Source: a virus. From it: a stretch of 26,560 nucleotides of DNA. Numbering within the stretch: the stretch's first letter is position 1; the number at the start of each line of letters is the position of its first letter. Made by a program: the position numbers and the translations under genes. Under the pieces are notes generated by a model. That model did not search any database. It was given only the letters and a program-made list of their open reading frames with translations, and had not been told where the DNA came from. Positions 5,489 through 24,997 of this stretch are shown piece after piece. The stretch covers positions 1 through 26,560 of IMG/VR virus record IMGVR_UViG_3300025326_000181; one strand, 5' to 3'.

Positions 5489-5580
5489 GTGACCGCCACC
5501 CGGTCGGCCTGAGTACGAGTGAGGGCCGAACTACCGGGGACCGTACTCGTCGGTACGCTCACCCGGGGGCGCCAGCATGA
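5485..5580 (+). CDS. 31-residue micro-ORF between terminase and portal
   Basis: ATG 5485 overlaps the terminase stop (ATGA 5485-5488) and the TGA at 5578-5580 overlaps the portal start (ATGA 5577-5580), so one open frame fills the whole gap. The product (starts MSDRHPVGLSTSEGRTTG) is Arg-, Thr- and Gly-rich with no visible fold. The same bases can form hairpins: GAGTACG (5511-5517) with CGTACTC (5542-5548), or CGTAC (5542-5546) with GTACG (5553-5557). These are mutually exclusive, so this may be an RNA control element, a coupling peptide, or both. A coding role is uncertain. Confidence 0.4.
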   Translation: MSDRHPVGLSTSEGRTTGDRTRRYAHPGAPA

Positions 5581-7982
5581 CTACCGAGTGGGACGGCACG
5601 GCGTGGGGAGGGATCACCGTGGCCGAGCCTGAGCGCATCGTTGTCCCGACGGTGACGAAGTCAATCACCGGACCCTTCGTCGCCAACGTGACCTACGGCA
5701 CCCAGCTTGCCTCGCTGGCCCGCAGTCCACAGGCGATCATGCGCGAGGCGCAGGCGCTCTACCACTCCAACCCCTGGATCAGGACCGCGGAGGCGACCGT
5801 CGTTCGGCGGACGGTCGGCCTACCGTGGCACCTGGAGGATGGCGAGGACGAGGAGATTCCCGAGGATGCCACCGGCGAGGCCGGTCGGGTCCGCGACCTC
5901 ATTGAGCGGCCGCAGCGGTTCGTCCAGGTCGGCCGCGAGATGACCCGCCGCGAGATGTGGTCGATCACGACTCGTCATATCGGCCTCTGCGGGATGAGTT
6001 ACTGGTATCTCGACCGGATGGGTACCGAAGGCTTGCCGACCTCGATCCTGTACGTCAACCCAGCACGTGTCTGGCCGGCCGAGGACCAAGCCGGCAACCT
6101 GATCGGCTGGATACTCGACCCGGCCGACTCGTCCGGGCACGGCGGGACACCGCTGACGATGGACGAGTTGATCCCCTTCTACCTCGCCCCGCCCGACTTC
6201 GGCAACCTCGGCACGGGCCTCGTCGCGGCCGCCTTCTTGAAGGCGCAGATCACGACCCTCGCCGATCGCCACGCGGGCTACGTCCTCGGCACCGGCGGCC
6301 GGTTGGCCGGCATCGTCTCGCCCAAGGAGGGGACGATCCCGGACGAGCAATACAACGCTCTCGTCCGCGAGTTCCGCAACGTCAACGAGGCCCCCGACGC
6401 TGCGAAACGGACGACGATTATCCGGGGCCCGATCGACTTCACTAAGACGGCCGCCGACCCGTCGGAGCTGAACCTCGTCGAGATCGCGACGATGAACCGC
6501 GACGACATCATGGCGATCTGGGGCGTGCCGCCGAGCCAGGCCGGCATCGTTACCTCGTCGGGAGGTCTCAACTCGGGCGAGACGCGCAAGTACGAGGAGG
6601 CGACGCTCATGCAGGGCGCCGTCCACGATCGCGTCATCGCCCTGTCCGAGACGATCCAGTTCCGCATCCTCGATCGGTGGCAGAAGGTCGGCCTCACGGT
6701 CGAGTTAGAGATCGAGGAGCCGGAGTTCGACGATCGGACGCCGCAATACGACCTCGCCGCCAAGGCAGTCAACATCCCGCTGACGAACGCCCAGCGTCTC
6801 GCCCTCGTCGGTGAGCCGCCGACGGGTGATCCGAGAATCGACAACGCGATCATGCTGCCGTCCACGATCCTCGAATATGCCGCCGTGCCACTGGCCGGCA
6901 AGGCCCGGACGACGGAGCAGCGCGAGTTCCTGGGCCTGCGCCGCACGCTTGACGCGAGGCTCGTGCCGAGCCTCCGAGATCATCTCGCCGGCGTGCTCGC
7001 CGAGCAGCGCGATGCCATCGCAGCAGCGATCCGGGCGAAGGGCGGTCACCTCGCCGCCAAACCGAATGACGTGTCGGTCTGGTGGAACGCCAAGCGCGAG
7101 GACGACCGGCTGGCGAAGGTGCTCCGGGCGGGCCTCGCCGGCTTGGCCCAGACAGTGGCGGGCCGAGCGCAGGAGCTCCTCCGGCCGGCAAAGGCGGACG
7201 GTTTCGTGGATCGCGTCCTGACCCAGATCCTCGTGGCCACGGGCCTACGGATCAGCGGCATCAACGATACGACCAAGCAGGCCGTCCAAGATGCTATCGC
7301 CGCAGGGTTCGATGCCGGCCTCTCGCCGCTCCAGGTAGCCGAGACGATCGAGTCGCTGCCGGCGTTCGACCTCGCCCGCGCCGAGATGATCGCTCGGACG
7401 GAGTCGATGTTCGTCTACAACGCCGCCGCTCTCGCCTCCTACACCGAGTTCGGCATCGACCGCGTCCAGGCCATCGACGGCGACGGCGACCTCGAATGTG
7501 CCCAACGCAACGGGCAGACCTATTCGATCGACGAAGCCGCCGGGATCGAGGATCACCCGAACGGGACGCTTGATTGGGTACCTGTCGTCGGCAAGGCCGC
7601 CCCGCAGAGCATGGAGATCCCGATGCGCTCAACGACACGACGAGCTCTCGACTCGGTCACCGAACTGCTGCGCGAAGATGCGGCGGCCGACGAGCAGATG
7701 CGCCAGCTCGTGGAGGCGGTCATCGAGGCCAAGTCGCAGCCGGTGGTGGTCGATACCGCGCCCTTCGCCAAGGCTCTGTCGGACCTGCCGAACGAGCCGG
7801 TTGTCGTCCCGGCCCCGATCGTCAATGTCCCAGCCCCGATCGTGAACATCGACATGGCGCCGGTCGCGGCGATCATCGCCGAGCTGCGCGAGGCGCTGAT
7901 GCGGAAGCCTCCGACAATCCGCCGGACCCCGATCCGCAACGAGGCGGGCCAGATCGTCCAGGTCATCGAGGAGGCGGTATGA
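5577..7982 (+). CDS. Portal protein fused to a MuF/gp7-type minor head domain
   Basis: An 801-residue protein. Residues about 30-440 follow the HK97-type portal: an N-terminal wing (SNPWIRTAEATVVRR), MTRREMWSITTRHIGLCG, and the stem/crown motif DIMAIWGVPPSQAG (near 310) followed by the polar helix before NAQRLALVGEPPTGD. Residues about 540-680 match the SPP1 gp7/Mu F minor head domain (ARTESMFVYNAAALASY, DGDGDLECAQRNGQTY, then HPNGTLDWVPV). The last 110 residues hold a helix and a VPAPIVN tandem repeat ending RTPIRNEAGQIVQVIEE. Portals form the 12-fold DNA gate at one capsid vertex; MuF proteins sit inside the head. Usually the two are separate genes, so here the inner protein is delivered as a portal extension. 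Confidence 0.88.
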   Translation: MTTEWDGTAWGGITVAEPERIVVPTVTKSITGPFVANVTYGTQLASLARSPQAIMREAQALYHSNPWIRTAEATVVRRTVGLPWHLEDGEDEEIPEDATGEAGRVRDLIERPQRFVQVGREMTRREMWSITTRHIGLCGMSYWYLDRMGTEGLPTSILYVNPARVWPAEDQAGNLIGWILDPADSSGHGGTPLTMDELIPFYLAPPDFGNLGTGLVAAAFLKAQITTLADRHAGYVLGTGGRLAGIVSPKEGTIPDEQYNALVREFRNVNEAPDAAKRTTIIRGPIDFTKTAADPSELNLVEIATMNRDDIMAIWGVPPSQAGIVTSSGGLNSGETRKYEEATLMQGAVHDRVIALSETIQFRILDRWQKVGLTVELEIEEPEFDDRTPQYDLAAKAVNIPLTNAQRLALVGEPPTGDPRIDNAIMLPSTILEYAAVPLAGKARTTEQREFLGLRRTLDARLVPSLRDHLAGVLAEQRDAIAAAIRAKGGHLAAKPNDVSVWWNAKREDDRLAKVLRAGLAGLAQTVAGRAQELLRPAKADGFVDRVLTQILVATGLRISGINDTTKQAVQDAIAAGFDAGLSPLQVAETIESLPAFDLARAEMIARTESMFVYNAAALASYTEFGIDRVQAIDGDGDLECAQRNGQTYSIDEAAGIEDHPNGTLDWVPVVGKAAPQSMEIPMRSTTRRALDSVTELLREDAAADEQMRQLVEAVIEAKSQPVVVDTAPFAKALSDLPNEPVVVPAPIVNVPAPIVNIDMAPVAAIIAELREALMRKPPTIRRTPIRNEAGQIVQVIEEAV
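7806..7847 (+). repeat. Tandem 21-base repeat in the portal tail (VPAPIVN x2)
   Basis: Two consecutive 21-base units (7806-7826 and 7827-7847) encode VPAPIVN twice with three silent base changes, then a related IDMAP segment. They lie in the C-terminal extension, between two helices, and probably form a short beta or extended spacer. Confidence 0.75.
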
Positions 7983-8309: not shown

Positions 8310-8786
8310 GTGTCCTGGACAGCATCCAAGATCTTCTCGGCCTTCCCGACCGATGCCGTCAACAGCACGGCCTCGTTCAACGTCGACGCCGATAACCTCA
8401 AGGCAGCGCTCTACAACGACTCGATCACGCCGAGCCAGACCGTCACCAGCGCCAACGCGGCCTACGGCGGCGGCGTCTGGACGGCCGGCTCGTCGCCGAA
8501 CATCCAGGACGCCGCCGGCTGGCCGTTCGTCGGTCGCCAACTGCTGTCGGTGACATCGGCCTTCGCCTCGAACGTCTACACCCTCGACGCGGCGGACACC
8601 GTGTCGGCCAACGACACGACGACGATCGCCTCGGCCTTCGGCACCCTCGTCTACAACGACACGCTGGCCGCGCCGGTCGTGGACCAGGGCCTTTCGTACC
8701 ACTACTTCGGCGGGACACAGTCGGTGACCAACGGCCGATTCACGATCATCTGGCACACCTCTGGCATCCTAGCCCTGACGCTGTAA
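8310..8786 (+). CDS. Virion structural protein, unknown function
   Basis: A 158-residue protein with GTG at 8310 and a good GGAAAGGAG at 8293-8301, 8 bases before it. The sequence is low in charge and high in Ser, Thr, Ala, Asn and Gly, with alternating beta-prone stretches (ASFNVDADNLKAALYNDS, AYGGGVWTAGS, GRFTIIWHTSGILALTL). This composition is typical of beta-sandwich virion proteins such as decoration or fibre-base proteins. The pattern KAALYNDSITPSQTVT is a form I associate with phage structural proteins. Its position between portal and protease suggests a head surface protein. Function unproven. Confidence 0.65.
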   Translation: MSWTASKIFSAFPTDAVNSTASFNVDADNLKAALYNDSITPSQTVTSANAAYGGGVWTAGSSPNIQDAAGWPFVGRQLLSVTSAFASNVYTLDAADTVSANDTTTIASAFGTLVYNDTLAAPVVDQGLSYHYFGGTQSVTNGRFTIIWHTSGILALTL

Positions 8787-8790
8787 GCCG

Positions 8791-10188
8791 ATGGCAACCG
8801 TCACCCACGCCATCTCGACGGCGAGCACGGCAGGCGGAACATCGTATGCCTCGGGCGCTTTCACGCCTGCCGCTGATGATCTGCTAGTCGCATTCGTCTT
8901 CGCCACGAGCACCGTGGCGACCGGCACGATGACCGACTCGCAGAGTCTTGGCTTCACGAAGGTCACCTCGGCCGTGAAGGGCGGCACCGCCCACACGCTC
9001 TACGCGTTCGTGGCGAACGCCCTGGCGGCGGCCAGTTCGATGACCGTCACTTTCGACTGCACCGGCGACCCCGCTTCGGGCGCAATCGTCCAGGTGGCCC
9101 GCATCGCGGGCATGAGCAAGACTGGGCTGACGGCGATCCTCCAGTCGGCCAAGTTGGAGAATCAGTCGGCGGGCGGAACGCCCACAGCGACCTTCCCTGC
9201 CTCGGCGCTGACAGGTAACCCAACGCTCGGCGCAGTGGGTAACGGTACCAATCCGGCGACGGTGACCAATCCCTCGGGTTGGACAGAGCGGGCCGACGAT
9301 GGCTACAGCGCGCCTGATGCGGGCCAGGAGTACGTCAGCCGCGACTCGGGCTTCACCGGCACCGTCATTACCTGGGGCAGCACCTCAGCTTCTACGTTCT
9401 GCGACCTCATCGTCGAGCTCGATGCGAGCGGAGCTGGTACCGCGGCCAATGCCGGCAACGCCGCCGGCACGGGTACCGCCCATCAGCCGGCGATCAGCCT
9501 CGACGTCAACGCCGGGCTCGCGTCGGGGACAGGCGTCGCCTACGATGCGACGGTCCTGACCGGCGCCGCTCCTGAGGCCGGCCACGCCAGCGGCACCGGC
9601 ACGGCGTACGGGCCATCGACCCGGGTCGAGCCGGCGATCCAGGCAGCCAGCGGCACCGGCACAGCGAACGCGCCGTCGGCGAGTGTCGGGACTGTGGCCG
9701 GTTCGGCGAGCGGAGATGGCACGGCCTACGGGCCAGCGACCGATGTCGGAGCTCAGGCCGGCAACGCCGGCGGTACCGCCAGCGCCGGCGCTCCGACGGC
9801 TGCCCTGGGCGTCAACGCCGCCGCGGCCCTCCTCGTCGGCGCCGCCTTCGACGCAACCGGCGCCGTAGCCGCCTTCGCCGGGCTCGCCTCGGGCACGGGG
9901 CTGGCCTTCGACCCGACCGTCGAGATCATCGAGTTCGGCGCTGGAACCAACGCGCCGGCTGGACATGCGGCAGGGATCGGCCAAGCATTCGACGCGACAG
10001 TCGCCATCCTGACGTTCGGTGAGGAACCGCGGCGCCGTGGCGGCCGACGACTCGGACCGATCAGCGGCGCGGCGCTGGTCAGCGGCCCGGCTGGCCAGCG
10101 GAAACGCGGTAGCCGGACCGTGCTCATCCTCGACGACCCGGAGGAGCTGTGGCTGCTCGGCCTCGGCGATCCGGTGGGGGACATCTGA
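8791..10188 (+). CDS. Repeat-containing virion surface protein (ASGTGTAY repeats)
   Basis: A 465-residue protein. Residues 1 to about 210 form a beta-rich domain (SGAFTPAADDLLVAFVFA, YAFVANALAAASSMTVTF, then an Ig/jelly-roll pattern). From about residue 215 to 410 there are about nine imperfect repeats of 20-26 residues, each with an AGxASGTGxAY/F-P/D core and a short hydrophobic strand. The last 50 residues are basic (EEPRRRGGRRLGP, GQRKRGSRT) and end in LILDDPEELWLLGLGDP, which could be an attachment point. The first domain resembles parts of the tail proteins at 22930-23630 and about 25180-25820. It is probably a long fibrous head or neck decoration. No ribosome binding site is seen in the 4-base gap before ATG, so it is likely coupled to the previous gene. 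Confidence 0.7.
   Translation: MATVTHAISTASTAGGTSYASGAFTPAADDLLVAFVFATSTVATGTMTDSQSLGFTKVTSAVKGGTAHTLYAFVANALAAASSMTVTFDCTGDPASGAIVQVARIAGMSKTGLTAILQSAKLENQSAGGTPTATFPASALTGNPTLGAVGNGTNPATVTNPSGWTERADDGYSAPDAGQEYVSRDSGFTGTVITWGSTSASTFCDLIVELDASGAGTAANAGNAAGTGTAHQPAISLDVNAGLASGTGVAYDATVLTGAAPEAGHASGTGTAYGPSTRVEPAIQAASGTGTANAPSASVGTVAGSASGDGTAYGPATDVGAQAGNAGGTASAGAPTAALGVNAAAALLVGAAFDATGAVAAFAGLASGTGLAFDPTVEIIEFGAGTNAPAGHAAGIGQAFDATVAILTFGEEPRRRGGRRLGPISGAALVSGPAGQRKRGSRTVLILDDPEELWLLGLGDPVGDI
9436..10020 (+). repeat. Array of about nine diverged ASGTGTAY-type repeats
   Basis: Direct repeats with a period near 60-66 bases encode AG-A-SGTG-A-Y/F-P/D units. The best-preserved units are at roughly 9585-9625 and 9645-9680, sharing a 15-base core (agcggcaccggcaca/g). 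The divergence between units suggests an old array with occasional exchange. Confidence 0.65.
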
Positions 10189-11216
10189 TGTCATACGAAG
10201 CGACGAAGGCGCGGTGGGACACCGCCTACATCAATGACCTGCCGGACTCGGCGTTCGCCGTCATCCTGCCCGGCGGTGAGAAGGACGACGAGGGTAAGAC
10301 AGTTCCGCGGAGCCTTCGCAAGCTGCCCCACCACGACGCCTCCGGGGCGGTCGACATGGCCCACCTTCGGAACGCGACGAGCCGCGAGCCACAGACTGAC
10401 ATGGCCGAGGCGATGCACGCCCGCGCTCACGCCCACCTGATGCGCCATGCCGACGCCGAGGGGATGGGCAAGGCGCTACTGCCGCTGAAGGCCAGCCCAC
10501 TCGACGACGACGCATTCCGGCTCCTGGCGATCCCCTTCGGTGGCCCGATCCCACATCCGGCCTTCCCAGACGGCGTGGACATCGATGGTGAGACGTTCAC
10601 CCCGCGGACCGACATCAAGCCAGACTGGTTGTCCTATCGGGTCACCGACTGGCACCACGGTAGCGACGGCCTGATGCGGCGGACGCCGCTCGGCAAGGCC
10701 ATCGACCTTGGCCGTTTCGACGGGCCATCGAAGGAACCCGACGAGGACGGCTGGTGGGTCACGGTCTGGCTCCACGCTGGCGAGAAGCGCCTCGAGCTGA
10801 TCCGCCGGCTTGCCGAGCGGGGCGCCCAGATCTACGGCTCGTCCGAGTCGGTCGCCGGGCTAGTCCGCAAGGCCGACACGGGCGAGATCCTCGTCTGGCC
10901 CTACTGGCGGCAGACGCTCTCGACCTCGCCCCAGAACACCCTGTCCGTCCTGCGCCCCCTCAAGGCGGTGCTGGCGGACCTCGACAACGACACGCCGGCT
11001 CTCTGGCAGGACTTGGAGATCGCCTTGCGCGACCTCGGCTCTGACCTCCACGCAACCTCCCTCGGGGGCGAGCACGGGGCGAAGGCCGGGCGAGTGCTCT
11101 CGGGCGTGAACCTGGCCGACCTGACCGAGGCGCTGGCAGCGTTCGATGTGGCGATGGCGCGCGTTCGCGTCGTCATCGGCCGCCAACCCGACTACGAAAG
11201 GACCGATACACCATGA
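10188..11216 (+). CDS. Prohead protease with an N-terminal extra domain
   Basis: A 342-residue protein; the TGATG overlap with the repeat protein sets ATG 10188. Residues about 20-100 (VILPGGEKDDEGKT, RKLPHHDASGAVDMAHLRN, then a His-rich helix) look like the helical LPHH-type domain often attached to phage maturation proteins (similar to DUF6582). From about 110, the segments WHHGSDGLMRRTPLGKA (His156/His157), WWVTVWLHAGEKR and AERGAQIYGSSESVAG (Ser218, Ser219 or Ser221) follow the His...Ser layout of HK97-type (S78-like) prohead proteases. It should cut the capsid N-terminal arm and itself during maturation. It sits directly before the major capsid gene, as usual. The exact nucleophile is not certain. 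Confidence 0.75.
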   Translation: MSYEATKARWDTAYINDLPDSAFAVILPGGEKDDEGKTVPRSLRKLPHHDASGAVDMAHLRNATSREPQTDMAEAMHARAHAHLMRHADAEGMGKALLPLKASPLDDDAFRLLAIPFGGPIPHPAFPDGVDIDGETFTPRTDIKPDWLSYRVTDWHHGSDGLMRRTPLGKAIDLGRFDGPSKEPDEDGWWVTVWLHAGEKRLELIRRLAERGAQIYGSSESVAGLVRKADTGEILVWPYWRQTLSTSPQNTLSVLRPLKAVLADLDNDTPALWQDLEIALRDLGSDLHATSLGGEHGAKAGRVLSGVNLADLTEALAAFDVAMARVRVVIGRQPDYERTDTP

Positions 11217-12601
11217 GCACCGGATTGGTCCGCGAGGCGTTCGGCGAGGACAACCTCCCGACCGGCATCGCGGAACAGATCGGGCGAGCCGCCCATCGGC
11301 TCGATGAGATCGCCAACGAGATGTCCAAGGCGAAGGCCGAGGACTCGACGCGCTACGAGGAACTCCGCAAGGAGCAGGTCGCGCAGGCCGCGACCCTCGG
11401 CGAACTCAAGAAGGCCGCCGAGTCCGAGGAGCGCGAGGCGCAGGTCAAGGCCGCCCTAGATACAGCGGCCGAGTGGCGGCAGTTCGCCGCCTCCTACCGG
11501 AGCCCGTCCAAGGCCGGGCTGATCGGCACCGGCTCGGCGTTCTACGCGCCGCAGCCCGCCAAGGCCGGGGCGTTCCTCGGCGCGGTGATGGCCGTCAAGT
11601 CCGGCGACTGGGAGGCCCAGAAGGCCGCCAAGGCGACCCTCCAGGCACTCGGCTCCGGCTGGACGGACGTGCCGACCGACTCAAAGGCGACGCTCGGCAC
11701 CACCGATGCCCTCGGCGGCTGGATCGTGCCGAATGCACTGGTTGACAGTCTCATCAAGCCGGCGACGTACGCCAACCCGTACCGCCGGTTGGTGACGACC
11801 GTGCCCGGCGTCACCGCCCCGTCCATCGACATCCCGTTCCGCCGCAACGCGCCGAACCGGGCCGTCGTGGCGCCGTGGGGCGACGCCAAGGAGAACGTCG
11901 ACCTGGTCTACGAGGGCTACACCGCGACGATGTACACCATCGCCCGGGTGCACGATCTGTCCAAGCAGTTCGCGCGGCAGAGCCAGGGTGCGGCCGAGCA
12001 GGATGTCCTCCAGGAGCTCGCCACCGCCTTCGCCCTCGGCGAGGCGTTCTACATCACCCAAGGCACCGGCACCGGCCAGCCCTATGGCCTCCAGACGGCG
12101 CTCGCCCTCGGTGGCGCCGCGGCGTTCACAAGCGCGTTCACGCCGGGCTCCACCCTCGTCGGCTCGGTCGCCGCGGCGATCGCGACGGCGGCCGGTGCGC
12201 TCGCTGGACGCAACGAGCCGGTCACGGCGGCAGTCCTCGCGGCAACGTCCTACTGGACGATGCTGAGTCAGGGCACCGACGAGGCCGGTTTCTGGTTCGC
12301 CGGCAGCCGTCAGGGCGGGACGCCGGAAGGCATCGATCCGACCACCCTCATCAGCCCGTTCGGCGTCCCGGTCTACCCCGACAGCTCGTCGCTGGCCGGG
12401 ACCGATGACCTCATCGTCGGCAACTGGAAGGCGCTGAAGGTCTACTTCGGCGAGAGCTACCGCGTCGACAGTTCCGACGTGGCCGGCAACCGCTGGGACA
12501 ACAACCTCATCGGCTTCCGCGGTGAGGAGGAGATCGGGCTCGACGCCCGACCGGCCGTCTTCGCCGGCAAGTTCCAGTTCGTCGCAGACGTCATCCCGTG
12601 A
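11213..12601 (+). CDS. Major capsid protein, HK97 fold
   Basis: A 462-residue protein whose ATG overlaps the protease stop, preceded by AAAGGA. Residues 1 to about 85 are a charged coiled coil (delta domain, about RLDEIANEMSKAKAEDS) that acts as a built-in scaffold and is usually removed by the prohead protease. After a hinge come LGTTDALGGWIVPNAL (N-arm/E-loop), TVPGVTAPSIDIPFRR, YEGYTATMYTIARVHDLSK (spine helix region), the P-domain with ALGEAFYITQGTGTGQPYGL, and VYPDSS...GNWKALKVYFGESYRVD near the end. All are characteristic of HK97-like capsid proteins, and size and place are as expected. A hairpin follows the stop. Confidence 0.92.
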   Translation: MSTGLVREAFGEDNLPTGIAEQIGRAAHRLDEIANEMSKAKAEDSTRYEELRKEQVAQAATLGELKKAAESEEREAQVKAALDTAAEWRQFAASYRSPSKAGLIGTGSAFYAPQPAKAGAFLGAVMAVKSGDWEAQKAAKATLQALGSGWTDVPTDSKATLGTTDALGGWIVPNALVDSLIKPATYANPYRRLVTTVPGVTAPSIDIPFRRNAPNRAVVAPWGDAKENVDLVYEGYTATMYTIARVHDLSKQFARQSQGAAEQDVLQELATAFALGEAFYITQGTGTGQPYGLQTALALGGAAAFTSAFTPGSTLVGSVAAAIATAAGALAGRNEPVTAAVLAATSYWTMLSQGTDEAGFWFAGSRQGGTPEGIDPTTLISPFGVPVYPDSSSLAGTDDLIVGNWKALKVYFGESYRVDSSDVAGNRWDNNLIGFRGEEEIGLDARPAVFAGKFQFVADVIP

Positions 12602-12663
12602 GCTATCGCCGGGCCGGTCGCGCCCTCCGCCGGCCGGCCCGGCACCACCAAGGGAGTCCGAAG
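12602..12663 (+). terminator. GC-rich hairpin between capsid gene and glycan cassette
   Basis: The gap after the capsid stop holds a perfect 10-bp inverted repeat: GCCGGGCCGG (12608-12617) and CCGGCCCGGC (12634-12643) around a 16-base loop. It shares GCCGGGCCGG, CTCCGC and CCGGCCC with the hairpin at 2368-2397. No T-run follows, so it may be a partial or rho-assisted terminator, an RNA-stability element or a processing site separating abundant capsid mRNA from the enzymes. AAGGGAG (12650-12656) is the ribosome binding site for the next gene. Confidence 0.5.
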
Positions 12664-13725
12664 TTGCGGGTCCTGCTCCTGACCAGCCACTCGATCGCCG
12701 AATACGACGACCTGCGGATGCTGTCGGACCTCGGTTACGACGTGTTCAGCATCGGCGCCTATACCGATCCGGCTGATCCGGCTGACGACAAGCGTCCGGC
12801 CCTGCCCGGCGTGGCCGCTCATCCCGACCTCGCTGCGCTCTGTGTTGAGCAGCGCGAGCGCTACGGCGAGCCCGGCCCCTACATCGATTGGGCCAAGGCG
12901 ATCCTCCATCCGGCCATCGTCGAGTGGGCCGAGACGATCATCGTCCACCACTACCCGGAGCGCTGGATCGTGCCGCAGTGGCCGTCGATCCGGCACAAGC
13001 GGGTCATCTGGCGGACCTGCGGCCAGTCAAGCCCACCGCTTGAGGCATACATGCGCCGCCTCCGCGACGATGGCCTCGGCATCGTCCGCTATTCACCCGC
13101 CGAACGGCGCGCCTACGAACCGACGGGCTCGTTCGCCGGCGAGGACGCTGTTATCAGGTTCGGCAAGTATCCCGCCGACTGGACTGACTGGAACGGCGAG
13201 GATGCGGTGGTCGGCAACGTGACCCAGGACATGATCGGCCGCGCCGATGCGTGCGGCCTCTCGTTCTGGCAGGCAGCGACGGACGGGCTCCCGGCCCGGC
13301 CCGCCGGACCCCGCTCGGAGCTGCTTCCGGGTGGCGTCGGGGCCCTCGCCTACGACGAGATGCGGGATTACCTCCGTCGCTGCCGCGCCTACCTCTATAC
13401 CGGCACGGAACCGGCGAGTTACACCCTCGGTCTGATCGAGGCACTGATGACCGGCGTGCCAGTCGTGGCGATGAGTGCCGGCAACGCCAACACTCCGGCG
13501 CTGTACGAGGCGGCCGAGCTCGCCCCGATCACGGCCGCCAGCCCGCGCGAAGCCCACGCGACCCTGCGCGACCTGCTGGCCGAGCCTGACCATGCTGCCT
13601 CGGCTGTCGCCCGGGCACAGGCGCTCGCCCTGTTCGACGTGGCGACCGTGGGCGACCAGTGGCGCGATCATCTCGATGCCGGCGTGAGCAATGTCGAGCG
13701 ACGCCTGGCGGGACGCGTGGCATGA
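12664..13725 (+). CDS. Glycosyltransferase, GT-B (GT4-like)
   Basis: A 353-residue protein. I chose TTG 12664, with AAGGGAG 7 bases upstream, because the protein then starts MRVLLLTSHSIAEYDDL, the first strand of a GT-B fold; the GTG at 12598 would add 22 residues through the hairpin. The C-terminal half has RAYLYTGTEPASYTLGLIEA followed by TGVPVVAMSAGNA, the nucleotide-sugar binding part of GT4-type enzymes. Glu249 and Glu259 are spaced E-x9-E instead of the usual E-x7-E. It should move a sugar from a nucleotide donor to a protein or glycan. It is the first gene of a four-gene cassette, linked by ATGA to the methyltransferase. Sugar and acceptor are unknown. Confidence 0.75.
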   Translation: MRVLLLTSHSIAEYDDLRMLSDLGYDVFSIGAYTDPADPADDKRPALPGVAAHPDLAALCVEQRERYGEPGPYIDWAKAILHPAIVEWAETIIVHHYPERWIVPQWPSIRHKRVIWRTCGQSSPPLEAYMRRLRDDGLGIVRYSPAERRAYEPTGSFAGEDAVIRFGKYPADWTDWNGEDAVVGNVTQDMIGRADACGLSFWQAATDGLPARPAGPRSELLPGGVGALAYDEMRDYLRRCRAYLYTGTEPASYTLGLIEALMTGVPVVAMSAGNANTPALYEAAELAPITAASPREAHATLRDLLAEPDHAASAVARAQALALFDVATVGDQWRDHLDAGVSNVERRLAGRVA

Positions 13726-14441
13726 GCATCCGGACCGTCTGGAGTCCGCGCGGCGCGCCGGTCGTACTCCACGTCCGCGACGACTCGTCGGACCTCTCGA
13801 TCGTCTACGCGACCTTCCGGGCCGAGGAGCATGGCGGTTGCGAGGACGAATATGGGCTCGCCGCCTGCCATGTCTCGGGCGTGGCGCTCGACATCGGTGC
13901 CCACGCCGGCTTCGTGACGATGGCGCTGCTGGCCGACAATCCCGACCTTCGGGTCATCGCGGTCGAACCGCTCGACCAGAACCTCGACCTGATGCGCGAG
14001 AACGCGGCTCTCAACGGCTGGGAGGAACGCCTGACGCCCGTGCTCGGGGCCGTGGGGCGGGGCGAGCGGCTGCGGATCGGCTGGGACTTCCGGGGCGAGG
14101 TGGGCGACTTCCGACGGACTAACCGCTTCATCGGCGGCCTGGAGGAGCAACTCGACTTCTCGGACTCGTGGGCCGACGTACCGGCCTACACCCTCTCGGC
14201 CCTGGTCAGGTTGGCCGGCGGCGAAGTCTCGCTCGTCAAGTGGGACTGCGAGGGCTGCGAGTGGGCCGGCCTCGACGACCCGGCCCTCTCCCACGTCGGC
14301 ATCATCGTCGGCGAGTGGCACGGTGACCCGGCGGTGCCGGGCCTCCATGCCCGGCTGGACGCGACGCACACCTTCGAGTCGGCGGATCGTGGCGGCGTGG
14401 GGACGTTCAGCGCCCGGCCAAAGATCATGGTGGCGGCGTGA
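13722..14441 (+). CDS. FkbM-family SAM-dependent methyltransferase
   Basis: A 239-residue protein starting at ATG 13722 in an ATGA overlap. The core Rossmann motif VALDIGAHAGFVTMAL (Asp57) binds SAM, and VIAVEPLDQNLDLMREN is the second strand with an acidic ribose-binding Glu. Further on, SLVKWDCEGCEWAGL (Asp175, Glu177) matches the K-D-EG-E signature of FkbM proteins (usually KIDVEGAE). Family members methylate sugar hydroxyls or related groups, which fits its place between glycosyltransferase genes: it likely caps or trims a glycan by O-methylation. Soluble, no membrane segment. The substrate is inferred from context only. Confidence 0.85.
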   Translation: MSIRTVWSPRGAPVVLHVRDDSSDLSIVYATFRAEEHGGCEDEYGLAACHVSGVALDIGAHAGFVTMALLADNPDLRVIAVEPLDQNLDLMRENAALNGWEERLTPVLGAVGRGERLRIGWDFRGEVGDFRRTNRFIGGLEEQLDFSDSWADVPAYTLSALVRLAGGEVSLVKWDCEGCEWAGLDDPALSHVGIIVGEWHGDPAVPGLHARLDATHTFESADRGGVGTFSARPKIMVAA

Positions 14442-15490
14442 TCCGCATCCTAGCCGACTTCCACCATCACGCACTCTGGGAGTCGCTGCGCCTCGTCTTC
14501 GAGGAACGCTTCGGCTGGGAGCTCTACCGGCCGATCGGCATGGACTGGTTCAGCGAGGGCTACTGGCTGTTTGAGCGCGACTGGCACGGCGACGCCGTGG
14601 CCCGCCAGTACCTCTCTCCCTACGGGGGCGATGCCGACCGCGGCGACTACTCGACCCGACCTGACTCCAAGTATCCCGGCCAGTCTTTCAAGATGGTAAC
14701 CCTCGATCAGTTCCGGGACCAGCGCTGGGACCTCGTGCTCACCACACTCGGCGCGAACGCCGCTGGCTTCGCTCGTCTCGCTCGTGAGAAGGGCGCGCCG
14801 ATCGGTGTCCAGATCGGCAACCAGTGGAACGACCTCGACATGCGCGGCATCGACTTCGTCCTCGCCTCGGCGACGATCCCGACGCCCGCGATCCCGCACG
14901 TCTATTACCACCAGGAGTTCGACCTTGGCATGTTCCGCTACGAGCCGCCGATCGGGTTCGGGCCGGTGGCGTCGTTCCTGAACTGCTTTGCCGAGACGAC
15001 CGAATACCCGCGCTTCCGTGACTTCGCGGCCGCCAGCCCGGACCTCGACTGGCGCTGCTACGGCGCCTACGGGACGGCGGTGCCCGACGAGTACGCGGCC
15101 GGGGACATCGCGGCGGTGCCCGAGATAGCCGACCTCATGCGCGCCTGTTCGGTTGGCTACCACGCCAAATACTGGAGCGATGGCTTCGGCCACGTCATCC
15201 ACAACTGGGCGGCGCTCGGGCGGCCAGTGGTCGGGGCGCGTCGCTACTACGCCGACAAGCTCGCCGGCCCGCTATGGGTCGAAGGCGTCACGAGCTGGGA
15301 CATCGATCACCACTCGCAGGCCGAGACGATCGACTTCCTGCGCGGGCTGCGGTCCGACCCCGAGCGACACGGCCGGATGTGCGAGGCGATGGCCGCCCGC
15401 TTCCGCGAGGTAGTCGACTTCGACGCCGAAGCCGAGTCAATCCGCGCCCTGTGCGAGTGGGCGATGAGCCGGAAGCCGGTGGCGGCATGA
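14438..15490 (+). CDS. Glycosyltransferase-like protein, GT-B
   Basis: A 350-residue protein with GTG start in a GTGA overlap with the methyltransferase. It opens with IRILADFHHHALWESLRLVF, a GT-B-like first strand with an unusual triple His. The middle has VLTTLGANAAGFARLA and GVQIGNQWNDLDMRGIDFVLAS. The C-terminal part has YHAKYWSDGFGHVIHNWA followed by LGRPVVGARRYYADKLAG, the site where GT-B enzymes bind the donor sugar nucleotide. No E-x7-E motif is seen, so it is not a plain GT4 member. It is linked in both directions by 4-base overlaps to the cassette. Function by fold and context; donor and acceptor unknown. Confidence 0.6.
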   Translation: MIRILADFHHHALWESLRLVFEERFGWELYRPIGMDWFSEGYWLFERDWHGDAVARQYLSPYGGDADRGDYSTRPDSKYPGQSFKMVTLDQFRDQRWDLVLTTLGANAAGFARLAREKGAPIGVQIGNQWNDLDMRGIDFVLASATIPTPAIPHVYYHQEFDLGMFRYEPPIGFGPVASFLNCFAETTEYPRFRDFAAASPDLDWRCYGAYGTAVPDEYAAGDIAAVPEIADLMRACSVGYHAKYWSDGFGHVIHNWAALGRPVVGARRYYADKLAGPLWVEGVTSWDIDHHSQAETIDFLRGLRSDPERHGRMCEAMAARFREVVDFDAEAESIRALCEWAMSRKPVAA

Positions 15491-16734
15491 GTCGCATCCA
15501 GTTCTGGGGCGATCTTGCCGGGACGGGCTTCGGGACGGTGACCCAGGACCTCGGCCGGGCGCTGCTCGACGCCGGCCACGACGTCCGCTTCGTCTCGCAG
15601 AACGATCTCGGCGACGACTTGGTAGAGCCGTTCGCCTCGCGGACCTTCCGGGTGACACCCTCGCTCGTCGATGCCGGCGCGGCGGTCGAGTACGGACTCA
15701 ACTCGATGTCCCTGACATCCGAGAGCGTCCTTCAACTGATCCGCGGCAATCTCTGGGAGGACGGCTGGCGCCCAGAAGCGGCGATCGTGCTCGGTGATTT
15801 CGTCAACGTCCGCCGCGTGGTGCTTGGCGATGCCGAGACGGCTGCCGCCTTCGCTTCCCTGCCGACCTACCACTATGTGCCGATCGAGGGAGTCGACCTG
15901 CCGCCAGCGTGGGCGGGCCTGTGGCGGATCGTCCACCCGGTCGCCATGTCCGAGTTCGGGGCCGAGCAGATCGCGACGGTGACAGGCGAGCGGCCGCCAG
16001 TCGTCTATCACGGCGTCGATACCGGGCAGTTCCGGCCCGTCTCGGCCGAACGGCCGCTCTATCTCGGTGAGCGCAAGTTGCGAACGAAAGCCGAGTGCAA
16101 GCGTTTCTTCGGCGGCAACCCGAAGATGCGCTGGGTCCTCCGCACTGACCGCTTCATGCCCCGCAAGCGCTTCGGTTCGTACCTCCGGGCCCTCGCCCCG
16201 GTCCTCGCCGGGCGCCCAGACGTGCTGGTGATGATGCATTGTCGGACGGTCGACGAGGGCGGCAACCTCGGCGATCTCATCTCCAAGTACCCGCCACCGA
16301 TCCGGGCGCGGATGATGGTGACCGGCTTCCACGATCGCATGGGCGGCGCGCCGCGGGACATCCTGACCGCGCTGTATAACGCCGCCGACATCTACGCCTC
16401 CTGCTCAGCTGAGGGTTTCGGTCTGACGATCGCGGAGGCGCTGGCCTGTGGCACGCCGGCGGTCGGAATGGACTACAGCGCGGTGCCCGAGGTCATCGGC
16501 CCGGCTGGTCTACTGGCGCCCGTCAACCGGCTCGACGATAACGAGTACGACCATGCCTGGGCGACGGTCGACGAGCGAGCCTTCGGGGCAGCGGTCGCGA
16601 CGCTGCTCGACAACGAAGTCCAGCGGATTCGGCTCGGCCGGCTCGGGCCCGGTCACGTCCACTCGTCGTTCTCTTGGACCCGGGCCGCCGAGCAGTTCGG
16701 TGGGATCGTCGACCGAAAGGAAGCCGTCGCATGA
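15487..16734 (+). CDS. Glycosyltransferase family 4-like
   Basis: A 415-residue protein with ATG 15487 in an ATGA overlap. The N-terminal domain has FWGDLAGTGFGTVTQDLGRALLDAGHDVRF, with the Gly-rich GTGFG loop. The linker has VVYHGVDTGQFRPV, common where the two GT-B domains meet. The C-terminal domain has RTDRFMPRKRFGSYLRAL and ASCSAEGFGLTIAEALACGTPAVG, with Glu309 and Glu317 forming the E-x7-E motif of retaining GT4 enzymes. This is the best-preserved sugar transferase of the cassette and is likely active. It ends in an ATGA overlap with the connector gene, so the cassette is transcribed with the virion genes. Confidence 0.85.
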   Translation: MSRIQFWGDLAGTGFGTVTQDLGRALLDAGHDVRFVSQNDLGDDLVEPFASRTFRVTPSLVDAGAAVEYGLNSMSLTSESVLQLIRGNLWEDGWRPEAAIVLGDFVNVRRVVLGDAETAAAFASLPTYHYVPIEGVDLPPAWAGLWRIVHPVAMSEFGAEQIATVTGERPPVVYHGVDTGQFRPVSAERPLYLGERKLRTKAECKRFFGGNPKMRWVLRTDRFMPRKRFGSYLRALAPVLAGRPDVLVMMHCRTVDEGGNLGDLISKYPPPIRARMMVTGFHDRMGGAPRDILTALYNAADIYASCSAEGFGLTIAEALACGTPAVGMDYSAVPEVIGPAGLLAPVNRLDDNEYDHAWATVDERAFGAAVATLLDNEVQRIRLGRLGPGHVHSSFSWTRAAEQFGGIVDRKEAVA

Positions 16735-17396
16735 TCGTCACCGCTGCCGCCGTCCGCGAATACATGGCCCTCAGCTCGACGCCTTCGACTTCGCAGTACA
16801 GCGACACGACGCTCGGCTCGAACATCCGGGCCGCACAGGCGACGCTCGAGCGGGCGACAGGCCGGACCTTCGAGGACGTGAGCGCGACCAGGGTATACAG
16901 CACCAATGGCGCGGCGTTCCTGCCCCTCCCGGGACTTCGTTCGGCCTCGGCCGTCACGCTCCAGGGAGCGGCCCTGACCGTCGACTCGACCTACTGGCTG
17001 ATCCCCGACGTGCAGCAGACGGGGGTCTATACTGGCATCCAGTTCCGAGCCTTCGGCACGGCCCGGCAGGGCACGGCGTGGTGGCTGTCCAACCCGGAGT
17101 GGTGGGATCGCAACCTCGACTCGCGGTTCTACCCGGCCAACTACGGCGGCCCGTCCTCCCTCCCGAACGATCTCTCGATCGCCGGATCGTGGGGTTGGAC
17201 CGACAGCGCGATGCCCGAGCCTGCCCGCCATGCTGTCAAGGTCCTAGCGTCGTACTACACGAAACGCCCTGACGCGATCCTGTCGGGCGCGATCACGACG
17301 CCAGACGGCAACTTCGTCAACCTCTCGATCCTCCCGATCGAGGTCCGCGCCTTCATCGACGAGTGGCGCGTCGGGCCGCAGGTGAGCGGGCTGTGA
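16731..17396 (+). CDS. Head-tail connector (gp6-like adaptor)
   Basis: A 221-residue protein, ATG 16731, ATGA overlap. It begins VTAAAVREYMAL, and then SNIRAAQATLERATGRTFEDV, the helix pattern of gp6/gp15-type connectors, followed by a beta insert (VYSTNGAAFLPLPGLRSASAV, YWLIPDVQQTG) and ends with MPEPARHAVKVLASYYTKRPDA, a long helix where family members pack around the portal. The connector ring closes the portal after packaging. Size is larger than the usual 100-110 residues because of the inserted beta part. Order before gp10-like and tail terminator genes supports this. Confidence 0.65.
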   Translation: MIVTAAAVREYMALSSTPSTSQYSDTTLGSNIRAAQATLERATGRTFEDVSATRVYSTNGAAFLPLPGLRSASAVTLQGAALTVDSTYWLIPDVQQTGVYTGIQFRAFGTARQGTAWWLSNPEWWDRNLDSRFYPANYGGPSSLPNDLSIAGSWGWTDSAMPEPARHAVKVLASYYTKRPDAILSGAITTPDGNFVNLSILPIEVRAFIDEWRVGPQVSGL

Positions 17397-18393: not shown

Positions 18394-19413
18394 ATGCCGA
18401 TCGCGGGCCTCACCAGGCTTCGCTTCAATCAGGTCGCCGAGCAGACGGTCATCGGGACCGCCGTGGCGGCCACCCGCCGCGTCCCGTGGCGCGGCATCCC
18501 GACGTACAACCCCAACCGGACCGACCCCGATGTGGACGTGGGCTCGATCGATCCGGTCATCAGCCCCTATCCCACGGCGGTCGACGTCGATTGGAACCCG
18601 ACGGGGCCGATCACCTTCGACGACCTGCCGATCCGGCTCTCGGCGGGTTTGCTCGGCGGCATCGCGCCGACCGGCGGTGGGACGGCCCGGACATGGGTCT
18701 ACCAGGTCGCCTCCCTGACCGCCGACGACTTCGACTATTTCACCGACGAACAGGGCGACGACACCGAGGCGACCGACGCGATCATCGCCTTTGGCGGCGT
18801 GGCCGACGTGCTGGAGGAGACGCTGCCCGAGGACGGCGGGCCATGGACGATCTCCGACCAGTGGATTTTCGCCGGGGGCACGCTCGGCGCGAATGCGACC
18901 AACGGTCTGACGGTCGACGACTCGCCCGTCTTCGCCTTCGGCACCGACACCGCGATCTACATGGACTCGACGCCGGGCGCGATCGGCGTGACCCAGCTCG
19001 TCGATACCATCCACGGCGCCACGATCCGCGTCTCCAATAACCTTGACCGGAAGCGCTATCAGAACGGGTCGAACACCCGCTTCCAGCTCTCCGGCTACGG
19101 TCGCGGGGCACGCCAGATCGAGCTTGTCCTGACCGTCGCCAAGTCGGCGGCGGCGATCACGGAGGCGGCGACCCTCGACGACTCGCCGGTCCCCAACCGC
19201 TTCTTCAAGGTCAGCACCACCTCGACAGAGCTGGCGCAGGCGGCCACGCCCTACGTCTACGAGCGGCAGGGCGCGTTCCGGCTGTTTGACCGGAGCGACG
19301 GCGAGATCGGTGGCAACGCCACGATCACCCTGACGTACCGGGCGTACTACGATGCGACGCTCGGCTACGCTTATAGGGCCCGCGTCGTCAACCAGCTCAC
19401 GGCCCTGCCATGA
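18394..19413 (+). CDS. Major tail tube protein
   Basis: A 339-residue protein with ATG 18394 after CGGAGGT. Early motifs are RFNQVAEQTVIGTAVAATRRVPWRG and SPYPTAVDVDWNPTGP, then LPIRLSAGLLGGIAPTGGGT, a glycine turn typical of tube proteins. The rest is beta-rich with an alternating pattern (TWVYQVASLTADDFDYFT) and ends VYERQGAFRLFDRSDGEI, NATITLTYRAYYDATLGY. Two beta sheets around an alpha helix is the known tube fold. It is followed by the frameshifted chaperone and the tape measure, the standard order tube-chaperone-tape measure, which supports the call more than any single motif. Length is on the long side and may include a surface domain. Confidence 0.75.
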   Translation: MPIAGLTRLRFNQVAEQTVIGTAVAATRRVPWRGIPTYNPNRTDPDVDVGSIDPVISPYPTAVDVDWNPTGPITFDDLPIRLSAGLLGGIAPTGGGTARTWVYQVASLTADDFDYFTDEQGDDTEATDAIIAFGGVADVLEETLPEDGGPWTISDQWIFAGGTLGANATNGLTVDDSPVFAFGTDTAIYMDSTPGAIGVTQLVDTIHGATIRVSNNLDRKRYQNGSNTRFQLSGYGRGARQIELVLTVAKSAAAITEAATLDDSPVPNRFFKVSTTSTELAQAATPYVYERQGAFRLFDRSDGEIGGNATITLTYRAYYDATLGYAYRARVVNQLTALP

Positions 19414-21864: not shown

Positions 21865-23630
21865 TGGCCTACTGGTACACGATCGACGGATCGGACATCG
21901 ATACCGTCCGCCACGAGGACTCGGAACTCGTCGAGAATGCCGAGCTCGGCCAGGTTGGCTCGGGTCGCATCGTCGTCGAGGATGCCGATGGGACGATCGG
22001 GATCGTCGGCCTCAAGGACGTGCTAGTCACGGAAGCGGACTGCGCCGATCCGATCCTCAGTGCCGGCTTCGTCGGGCCGCGGACCTACCGCCGGATGGTC
22101 GAACGCACCGACGGCGCCCGCGAGATCGCGGTCACGGTATGGGACCTCAACGACCTCCTCGGCCAGCGGGTCATCACCGGGACCGACGGCAAGCGTCCGG
22201 CCGAGACGGTCGGCGAGCGCCTGACCTGGTTGCTCGCCTCGGATTACCTCGCCGGGCTCGTCATCGACAACGGCCGCGTCGTCTACCCAGCCGACAAGGG
22301 CATGGACAAGAACATCTTCCGCAACAGCCGGCCGGGCGACGTCCTGGCCGCCTGCGCGACTGCTGCCGCCGGGATGAACTACTATGTCCGTGACTTCGGC
22401 GCTGGCCCCGAGCTCATCTTCCGCAACGACAACACCTCGACTGCCGATGCCTCGACCCTCCGTATCTCGAACATCGAGGCCGACGTCGACACGACGACGT
22501 TTCCGCCGTTCCTCGACACGACCCTGACCCGCGATCCCTCGGAGGTCGCGTCGCAGGTAACGATGAGTTACGCCAAGCTTAGCGTCACCGACACTCGGCC
22601 GGCCACCGCGACGGCCTTCGCCGAGCGCCATGCGACCGCCGACAACTCGGCCATCAAGACGGCGTCGAAGGCTCACGACGAGGCGACCGACTACCTCTGG
22701 CAGCATCACACAGAAACGGATCTCATCCAGACTTCGATCCTACTGCCTCCCGATAGCGTCAACCTCGTCCGGGCGGGCGACCGCATCCAGGCCAAGTTCG
22801 CTCACTTCGCGTCGGAGGGCTATGACTCGTTCGGCTGGTGGCGAGTCCTGGAGCGCCGCGTCAAGCCGCTGCCCAAACCCGCCGCGCTCTACCAGGTCAG
22901 CCTCAAGCTCAGCCCGCAGGAGGCCGCCCCACCCGCAGCCGTCATCGTCCAGTCGGCGTTCGGACGCTCCGGTGAGGGTGGCCTGAACCTCTCGCTGGCA
23001 AACCCTGTGACGGTCGGCAATCTGCTCGTCTTCGCCATCGGCGACCGCGCTCAGCCCGCACCGCCCGCGCCGAACACGGCCCCGACGAAACCGCGTTGGG
23101 GCGCCGGGGCATGGACCAAGATCCCTAATGTCACCATCAACTCGGTCGGTTGGAATGATGGCGTTGCGTTCTGGGTCAAGGAAGCTGACTCGACGGAACG
23201 GACCGGTTACCAGGGATCGACCAACGCCAATATGGGCATCTACGAGATCGCCGTTCCGGACGCTGCGGCCACCATCGCCGCGATCACCTCGGATTACGAG
23301 GACGCGCCGGCGGTGGCGAACCCAATGTCTGTCGGTTCGCTCGGTACCGTGGCATCCGGTGCGATCGCCCTGATGGTCCTCGTCTGGGCCGACCAAAAGA
23401 ACTGGGATGATAGCGGCAACCCGGCTGCCACGATGGCCGATCCCTGGGTCATCGACTGGTTCCGCTGGGCGTATGACGGGCCACTTATCATCCAGAACAG
23501 TCCATATACCGTAATCGCCCACGCCTACGGTGACGGCGGTGCCCTGACCGGCGCCGTAACGCGCACGGGATTGCTCCATCTCGACGGGCTCTGGTGCGCC
23601 GCGGCCATCGTCATCACGCCGACGGCATGA
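21864..23630 (+). CDS. Tail hub/distal tail protein with a C-terminal beta domain
   Basis: A 588-residue protein, ATG 21864 in a TGATG overlap with the tape measure. Residues 1 to about 350 are beta-rich hub-like sequence: SELVENAELGQVGSGRIVVEDADG, VTVWDLNDLLGQRVITG, VGERLTWLLASDYLAGLV, NIFRNSRPGDVLAACAT and LPPDSVNLVRAGDRIQAKF. This resembles Gp37/gp27-type tail proteins of long-tailed phages that follow the tape measure. From about residue 359 (VIVQSAFGRSGEGG) a second beta-sandwich starts, with VTVGNLLVFAIGD, WVKEADSTERTGY and SGAIALMVLVWAD; similar domains occur in the proteins at 8791 and 25008. The extra domain could bind polysaccharide. Assigned by position plus sequence style. Confidence 0.7.
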   Translation: MAYWYTIDGSDIDTVRHEDSELVENAELGQVGSGRIVVEDADGTIGIVGLKDVLVTEADCADPILSAGFVGPRTYRRMVERTDGAREIAVTVWDLNDLLGQRVITGTDGKRPAETVGERLTWLLASDYLAGLVIDNGRVVYPADKGMDKNIFRNSRPGDVLAACATAAAGMNYYVRDFGAGPELIFRNDNTSTADASTLRISNIEADVDTTTFPPFLDTTLTRDPSEVASQVTMSYAKLSVTDTRPATATAFAERHATADNSAIKTASKAHDEATDYLWQHHTETDLIQTSILLPPDSVNLVRAGDRIQAKFAHFASEGYDSFGWWRVLERRVKPLPKPAALYQVSLKLSPQEAAPPAAVIVQSAFGRSGEGGLNLSLANPVTVGNLLVFAIGDRAQPAPPAPNTAPTKPRWGAGAWTKIPNVTINSVGWNDGVAFWVKEADSTERTGYQGSTNANMGIYEIAVPDAAATIAAITSDYEDAPAVANPMSVGSLGTVASGAIALMVLVWADQKNWDDSGNPAATMADPWVIDWFRWAYDGPLIIQNSPYTVIAHAYGDGGALTGAVTRTGLLHLDGLWCAAAIVITPTA

Positions 23631-24997
23631 AGGTCACCGTCCGGACCCCTGATCGAGCGGGTGCGGTGGTCCGCGGTCACATCGCGTCGACGAGGGCGGC
23701 GAGCTCAGGGATTACCGTCACTGACGGCACGACCGAGGTCGATGGCGTCACGACAGTCATCTTCGACAGCGCCCTCGTCTCTGACCTCGACGATGGAACG
23801 GTCCTCGTCACGGTGGGCGGCACCGAACTTCTGGTGCCGACATCGGACATCACCGCGACGAAGGCTGCCGGCAACCCGACCTTCGACGGCGACTTCATAC
23901 CCGAGGACGTCATCAAGGTCGGCTCGACCTATTACTGCATCGGACAGACGTGGACCACCTCGCCTTGGCAGATTCACTTGTGGACGGCTACCGCCGTGGC
24001 CGGTCCGTGGACGGCCTATGGCTCCAACCCGATCTACGAACTGAGCGATGTCCCATGGGCTCTCGGGACGGCCAACGAGATCAACGCGCCGGGGCTCGTC
24101 CTTGATGCCGGGACGTACTATCTGTTCTACTCGGTCCTCAACAGCACGACCGGGCAGGACGGCAAGATCGGCCTCGCCACCGCGTCTGCGATCACGGGTC
24201 CGTACACTGACCACGGGGCGCCGATCGTCTCGGAGGGCGCCCCGTCATCGAATACCTCGCTCCAGGTGGGCGAGGCGTCGGTCATCCACTTCGGCGGCCA
24301 GTGGATCATGGCGCTCATGGCCGAGGACGAAGACTTCGCCTTCCAGTTGTCGGAGAAAATCTACATCTACACCGCAGCCCTGCCCAGCGGCCCGTGGACG
24401 ATCGGCAACTCGGGCAATCCGATCATCGACCACGGCGCCAACGGCGAATGGGACGACGACATGTGCGCCGATCCATTCTTGTTCGCCGAGGGCGGGCGCT
24501 ACTGGATCATGTACTCGGGTGGCGGGAGCGAGGGCGGCACGGGCACGCGCAAGTGGCATCTCGGCCTCGCCTACGCCGACGACCCTGGCGGACCGTGGAC
24601 CAAGCACACGAGCAACCCGATCCTGTCGGCGAGTTCGTCGGGCTGGGATGAGATGGCGGCGTGGCGCGGGTCGCTGTATGAGGACGGCAATATCTGGCAC
24701 GGCGTCTACGGCGGGCTGAACTCGGCCCTGTCGGTCGCCAAGGGCGGTAACTTCGTGCTCGACATCGTGAGCGCCGAAACCCTGCCGCTACGGGCCGACG
24801 ACATCCCGATCGACGACGCGGGCGGGTACTTCACCGGCTCAGAGGTCGAAACCGCGTTGCAGGAGATCGGCGCGATCCTCGACACGCCTGCTGGGGCGGG
24901 CGGACATTATGAAGTGATCGTCGACGGCACGGCCCCGCCAATCGCCGTGACGAATATCGCCGAAGACGATTGGCTGTACGGCTTCGTGGCCGATTAG
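23627..24997 (+). CDS. Tail fibre or spike with a GH43-like propeller
   Basis: A 456-residue protein, ATG 23627, ATGA overlap. Residues 1-80 are a beta fibre-like start (SGITVTDGTTEVDGVTTVIF). Residues about 85-390 look like a five-bladed propeller of the GH43/GH32/GH62/GH130 type: each blade has a YY-x-F/YYS or YWIMYSG strand and G-P-W-T turns. Candidates for catalytic acids are Asp89/Asp94 (FDGDFIPEDVIKV), Glu151 (NEINAPGLVLDAGTYY) and Asp282 (DDDMCADPFLFAEGG). The end (ADDIPIDDAGGYFTGSEVE) is a motif typical of tail-fibre links. It likely hydrolyses a host polysaccharide such as an arabinan or fructan at the tail tip. Substrate and exact family cannot be fixed by eye. Confidence 0.7.
   Translation: MKVTVRTPDRAGAVVRGHIASTRAASSGITVTDGTTEVDGVTTVIFDSALVSDLDDGTVLVTVGGTELLVPTSDITATKAAGNPTFDGDFIPEDVIKVGSTYYCIGQTWTTSPWQIHLWTATAVAGPWTAYGSNPIYELSDVPWALGTANEINAPGLVLDAGTYYLFYSVLNSTTGQDGKIGLATASAITGPYTDHGAPIVSEGAPSSNTSLQVGEASVIHFGGQWIMALMAEDEDFAFQLSEKIYIYTAALPSGPWTIGNSGNPIIDHGANGEWDDDMCADPFLFAEGGRYWIMYSGGGSEGGTGTRKWHLGLAYADDPGGPWTKHTSNPILSASSSGWDEMAAWRGSLYEDGNIWHGVYGGLNSALSVAKGGNFVLDIVSAETLPLRADDIPIDDAGGYFTGSEVETALQEIGAILDTPAGAGGHYEVIVDGTAPPIAVTNIAEDDWLYGFVAD

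Follow-up and report, generated by a model that had tools for sequence, protein, structure and literature searches.

A putative virion glycosylation locus with one fixed glycosyltransferase and exchangeable partners in the head operon of phages that probably infect Chloroflexota

Why does a phage carry four glycan-type genes between its major capsid protein (MCP) gene and its head-tail connector gene? This arrangement is found in a 26,560-base IMG/VR virus record (IMGVR_UViG_3300025326_000181; hereafter the window, which may be a fragment), in which three glycosyltransferase (GT) genes and a gene for an FkbM-type S-adenosylmethionine (SAM) methyltransferase lie on the + strand in the order GT1, FkbM, GT2, GT3. 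A few actinobacteriophages are known to glycosylate their virions, which shields them against antibodies. Based on comparison with related contigs, we consider it likely that these genes form a locus for virion glycosylation within the late head operon. The locus looks functional, and while the kind of system is already known, the pattern is new, in that one GT is obligatory throughout the lineage and its set of partners is exchangeable. The genes are as follows:

11213..12601, + strand, HK97-type MCP (Phage_capsid, 4.6e-19; phrog_10), upstream boundary
12664..13725, + strand, GT1, GT-B/GT4-like transferase (PF13524, Glyco_trans_1_2, 1e-6, above the cut-off; structure model)
13722..14441, + strand, FkbM-type SAM methyltransferase (PF05050, 3.7e-9)
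14438..15490, + strand, GT2, GT-B transferase (AlphaFold model; no Pfam family)
15487..16734, + strand, GT3, retaining GT4-like transferase (PF13692, Glyco_trans_1_4, 2e-11)
16731..17396, + strand, head-tail connector (adaptor) (phrog_442, 1.3e-12), downstream boundary

A 63% match to GT2 led to a contig that is syntenic in its capsid, connector and tail genes and in the cassette, although FkbM precedes GT1 there. When viral contigs were searched with the MCP as a single sequence, no relative emerged, and MCP relatives were recovered only with alignments of two and then 27 sequences. Contigs were collected in scans with GT1, GT2 and GT3, and then with two GT-independent baits, the capsid and the tail gene at 18394. 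After merging, these scans yielded 136 contigs in addition to the window, three of which are genome contigs and some of which belong to other phages with GT homologues only. In all 64 contigs that show both the MCP and the connector gene, GT3 is located between the two; 59 of these were reached by an MCP or tail bait, and GT3 is present in 59/59. It is also found upstream of every connector preceded by at least 1,300 bases (85/85). Across the lineage, MCP identity to the window goes down to 29%. Judging from the same genes in the same slot throughout these related contigs, the arrangement is beyond chance, and GT3 can be read as a fixed, never-lost gene of the lineage's head operon. GT1 and GT2 are present in 45 of the 64 contigs and FkbM in 42. 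The gene order is FkbM-GT1-GT2-GT3 in 34 contigs and that of the window in three, while 19 contigs have GT3 alone of the four and eight have other arrangements.

One explanation for such a locus would be a recently captured moron unconnected with virion biology. In Streptomyces phage OnionKnight, a syntenic phage with homologous portal (6e-25), connector (3e-8) and neck (3e-25) proteins, capsid and connector genes are near neighbors with a single 93-aa gene in the slot between them, which supports the original remark that these two genes are usually adjacent; moreover, homologues of GT1 and GT2 are found in contigs without a recognised capsid of the lineage. A moron is nevertheless extremely unlikely, and is contradicted for GT3 by its presence in 64/64 contigs with capsids as divergent as those above. 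In addition, GT3 carries the same phylogenetic signal as the connector, and the four genes are equal to the flanking genes in both G+C content (GC) and G+C content at third codon positions (GC3). Recent insertion, judged from composition, was rejected on this last basis; because GT3 is also never lost, "inserted" is a misleading word for this locus. Contigs L016-L018, L020-L024 and L066 carry homologues of GT1, GT2 or GT3 (GT2 sometimes in tandem), with no capsid or connector of the lineage recognised, and from these it appears that the GT enzymes may move between phage groups. A GT3 search of the genome contigs gave no match, and none was obtained at 1e-60 in 400 Chloroflexota genomes, a search that had no positive control and in which no cellular source was found.

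Is the locus inherited as a whole? Pairwise distances for GT3 correlate with those for the connector (r = 0.84) and MCP (0.70), as compared to 0.51 for MCP and tail gene 18394, so that by this measure GT3 diverges in step with connector and capsid. MCP distances correlate weakly with those of GT1, GT2 and FkbM (0.29-0.34). On the MCP tree, there are at least five changes between the four-gene and GT3-only states, on well-supported branches, and the window gene order (FkbM after GT1) is found in three separate parts of the tree. In the three closest pairs, the ratio of nonsynonymous to synonymous polymorphism (pN/pS) of GT3 is 0.19-0.37, and FkbM is often far more diverged than its neighbors. 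The original proposal asked whether the cassette comes and goes as a unit; comparison of relatives does not support this and instead indicates that GT3 stays in place while the upstream half (FkbM, GT1 and GT2) has been exchanged at least five times, largely for other glycan genes.

The replacement genes were identified by scanning 68 proteins from the GT3-only islands. Nineteen of these match Glycos_transf_2 (GT-A), four NTP_transf_3, two CTP_transf_3 and three epimerase/dehydratase families; FdtA (1.3e-40), hexapeptide and GNAT acetyltransferases, methyltransferases and a GDSL lipase are also present. No flippase or polymerase is among the 25 Pfam families listed for these islands. In the capsid-connector slot of L032 and L123, genes for beta-ketoacyl-acyl carrier protein synthase III (KAS III) and a short-chain dehydrogenase stand beside glycan genes, and an acyl or polyketide-like decoration is possible there. 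Bacterial O-antigen and S-layer glycan loci have fixed flanks and a swappable middle that combines GTs with enzymes for sugar nucleotides, acetylation and methylation; FdtA is one such enzyme. The layout described here is like that of an O-antigen locus incorporated in the head operon of a phage; it differs from the bacterial loci in this setting and in that the acceptor is presumably a virion protein.

The original prediction of three GT-B-type proteins and one FkbM methyltransferase between capsid and connector held up under the structure prediction and profile searches suggested with it, which gave GT-B folds for GT1 and GT2 and Pfam families for GT1, GT3 and the FkbM enzyme. GT1 and GT3 are above the Pfam cut-offs for group 1 transferases, while GT2 has no Pfam match. 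The GT1 model (predicted local distance difference test score (pLDDT) 93.6) is a GT-B fold closest to 9v0l (Z 26.3, root-mean-square deviation (rmsd) 3.0 over 305 residues). In place of an E-x7-E motif, GT1 has an invariant Ala273 where the first Glu would lie, followed by an invariant Glu281 (51 aligned relatives), which suggests that the active site is altered while the fold is otherwise that of a standard GT4-like enzyme. The AlphaFold model of GT2 (pLDDT 96.4) is also GT-B and matches TarM (4x7r; Z 24.5, rmsd 3.0 over 299 residues). A clean E-x7-E motif, predicted for one of the three GTs, is restricted to GT3, in which E309-x7-E317, R226 and K227 are invariant (51 sequences). GT3 profile matches in the PDB include PimB' (8e-17) and MshA, indicating kinship to GT4 enzymes. 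The catalytic residues of GT3, along with the GT-B folds of GT1 and GT2, are as would be expected for phage-encoded transferases with intact catalytic sites, such as those of virion glycosylation systems of the Che8/Corndog/Myrna type. The FkbM protein scores 37.4 bits against a PF05050 gathering cut-off of 22.7, and its SAM motifs (D57, G59, G63, E82 and D175-E177-G178-E180) are invariant in 41 sequences; sugar O-methylation is its probable function. No tblastn match to GT1, GT2, FkbM or tail gene 18394 was found among 50,697 phage records.

As GT-B folds include T4 DNA alpha-glucosyltransferase (1y8z), which fits GT2 with a Z of 20, and the glycosyltransferase of phage HY126, these enzymes might instead glycosylate hypermodified bases of phage DNA, as in T4-like phages; DNA-modifying virus GTs are known (reference 46 in PMC12619734). 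We believe this to be very unlikely. DNA GTs require hydroxylated bases, and the thymidylate synthase/hydroxymethylase family (PF00303) was found in only one of 25 long, possibly incomplete records. Furthermore, the genes sit in the head operon, and the genes that replace them make nucleotide sugars or methyl or acetyl decorations.

When and where would these enzymes act? Four-base overlaps (xTGA) join GT1/FkbM, FkbM/GT2, GT2/GT3 and GT3/connector. The earlier claim that all of the genes are joined in this way stands for these last four junctions and probably fails for the first. The GT1 reading frame is open from GTG 12598, which overlaps the MCP stop. TTG 12664 is probably the true start for three reasons. 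First, it is preceded by AAGGGAG at a spacing of 7 nt. Second, it agrees with the GT1 start in relatives. Third, the first ~20 residues of the GT1 model are of low confidence. If GT1 starts at this position, then the MCP/GT1 junction is a short gap of 62 nt and not an overlap. Co-expression with the head operon, as originally predicted, is consistent with both the position of the genes and the stop-start coupling into the connector gene. Hydropathy analysis of the four proteins identified no transmembrane segment, and the membrane-bound GtrA and polytopic GtrC partner expected of a gtr operon are missing among them.

These features bear on a third explanation, that the enzymes act on a glycan of the host surface in the course of infection, for instance in superinfection exclusion, much as serotype-converting gtr genes do in temperate phages. 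Temperate phages do encode serotype-changing GTs (noted in PMC12619734), an integrase is present in 5/25 of the long records, and both GT1 and GT2 are similar to TarM, an enzyme that glycosylates wall teichoic acid. We regard this explanation as unlikely, though less so than DNA modification, because the four proteins have no transmembrane segment or membrane partner, the genes are part of the late head operon and run into the connector gene by stop-start coupling, GT3 is co-inherited with connector and capsid and never lost, and no integrase was detected in most of the 25 records, which are possibly incomplete.

Several features together argue for modification of a virion component: late co-expression, enzymes predicted to be cytoplasmic, the tie between the connector and GT3, which is never lost, and exchange confined to the upstream genes, which are replaced largely by other glycan genes. 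In a virion glycosylation locus of this kind, the enzymes would be made together with the capsid and connector proteins and, having no transmembrane segment, would act in the host cytoplasm. When one enzyme of an otherwise variable pathway is fixed, it should act where the pathway is constant, namely at the acceptor. GT3 may therefore be the priming or linking transferase, which would attach the first or linking sugar to a virion protein; MCP is the first candidate. GT1 and GT2 would then lengthen the glycan using host nucleotide sugars, and the FkbM enzyme would O-methylate it with host SAM. In other members of the lineage, replacement of the upstream genes by different transferases and sugar-nucleotide enzymes would vary the glycan type, with GT3 and the virion genes retained. 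A stronger version of this model is possible but doubtful: by analogy with O-antigen loci, this may be a virion glycotype locus, in which the coat is fixed and essential, GT3 primes the capsid and upstream exchange switches the glycan type. If a whole environmental lineage never loses its head-operon GT, glycosylation of the particle would be required under natural conditions, where animal immunity plays no part. Because GT3 is fixed and the rest swappable, both the function of the coat and the effect of exchange on interaction with hosts or predators can be tested.

MCP is the most likely candidate for the acceptor because of its abundance, its position and the precedent of mycobacteriophage Corndog. 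The repeat protein at 8791 had been put forward as an alternative and was rejected as a general acceptor, being too rare: it is present in 3/63 contigs covering the region, and three partial contigs also carry it. In the window, bp 8310-10188 hold the gene for a Ser/Thr-rich protein (24%) and, downstream of it, that for the repeat protein (20%). The pair is found in few relatives (L150 and L182), and the repeat protein also in L054, L055 and L149.

Several points weigh against virion glycosylation. The phages are uncultured, and the bait alignments derive from GT-bearing contigs, so remote relatives without a GT may have been missed. The fit of GT2 to the T4 enzyme shows that the fold is silent on the acceptor. 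Corndog-type enzymes have no detectable homology to those described here. Finally, mycobacteriophage glycan sites are reported to be C-terminal (PMC12619734), while the MCP C-terminus is short and conserved in this lineage, so that the glycan would have to be attached elsewhere. On balance, the proposal of virion protein or glycan modification remains the best reading by comparison, with the Corndog precedent in its favor; the acceptor and sugars are inferred only.

Which known system does the locus most resemble? In the head operon of Corndog, a cluster O mycobacteriophage, an O-methyltransferase (gp35), two GTs (gp36 and gp37) and a GlcNAc-transferase (gp38) are encoded; capsid peptides were scarce, and methyl and glycan modification was proposed in 2015 (PMC4351075). 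Later work, including that of Freeman et al. (2023), as cited in PMC12363180 and PMC12619734, reports that capsid and tail tube proteins are glycosylated. Both loci consist of one methyltransferase and three transferases encoded by overlapping genes inside the head operon, and both are linked to virion structural genes, in Corndog and its relatives Firecracker and Dylan as in the MCP-[...]-GT3-connector order of 64/64 contigs. The Corndog enzymes differ in lying between portal and protease genes rather than between capsid and connector genes, and the available parts of the literature on Corndog describe no exchangeable locus. The Firecracker enzymes (a TylF-type methyltransferase and weakly GT-A/GT25-like proteins) belong to Pfam families unlike those found here, and comparison with Firecracker gp33-36 detected no homology (hhalign probability <4%). 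By analogy, the locus appears to work like the Corndog system, without being shown as a member by descent.

Two other phages have GTs in the same slot. Pontimonas phage phiPsal1 (MG835450) has the order MCP-group 1 GT-methyltransferase-GT2-neck, and its GT matches the GT3 profile with an hhalign probability of 99% over 256 columns (~24% identical to GT3). It is an actinobacterial phage with a marginally similar capsid, and the phiPsal1 paper does not discuss these enzymes. Microcystis phage Mae-JY09 (PP395641) encodes a GT3-like enzyme in the order MCP-(hypothetical)-GT-hypothetical-epimerase-(hypothetical)-adaptor, and its TerL is 47% identical. It differs in its cyanobacterial host, its capsid, which is not detectably related, and its lack of GT1, GT2 and FkbM. 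The hmmsearch E-values for proteins of loci L003-L007 are inflated because those loci are in the profiles; the hhalign profiles excluded them.

An actinobacterial setting, which the comparison with actinobacteriophages might suggest, is not supported: a phylum-neutral scan of 84,980 species genomes with the capsid profile gave three hits, 3/3 in Chloroflexota bins; binning error is possible, though it is unlikely that all three would fall in one phylum by chance. A 400-genome Chloroflexota sample gave one more strong hit and weaker ones with this profile. In the Chloroflexota genomes L211 and L223, decayed protease and capsid genes are embedded in longer bacterial contigs. In L211, the neighboring genes appear to encode a bacterial two-component system and an ABC transporter, as would be the case for a decayed prophage. 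Based on these results, the lineage probably consists of siphovirus-like phages of Chloroflexota, and the locus gives some clues to this little-known group of phages.

Searches for RNA families and tRNAs identified none. Elsewhere in the window, an 801-aa open reading frame (bp 5577-7982) encodes a portal protein fused with a Phage_Mu_F head-morphogenesis domain. Following the tail genes, bp 23594-24997 match glycosyl hydrolase family 43 (4e-16) and GINT1_N, and the product is possibly a tail-borne protein that binds or degrades glycans.

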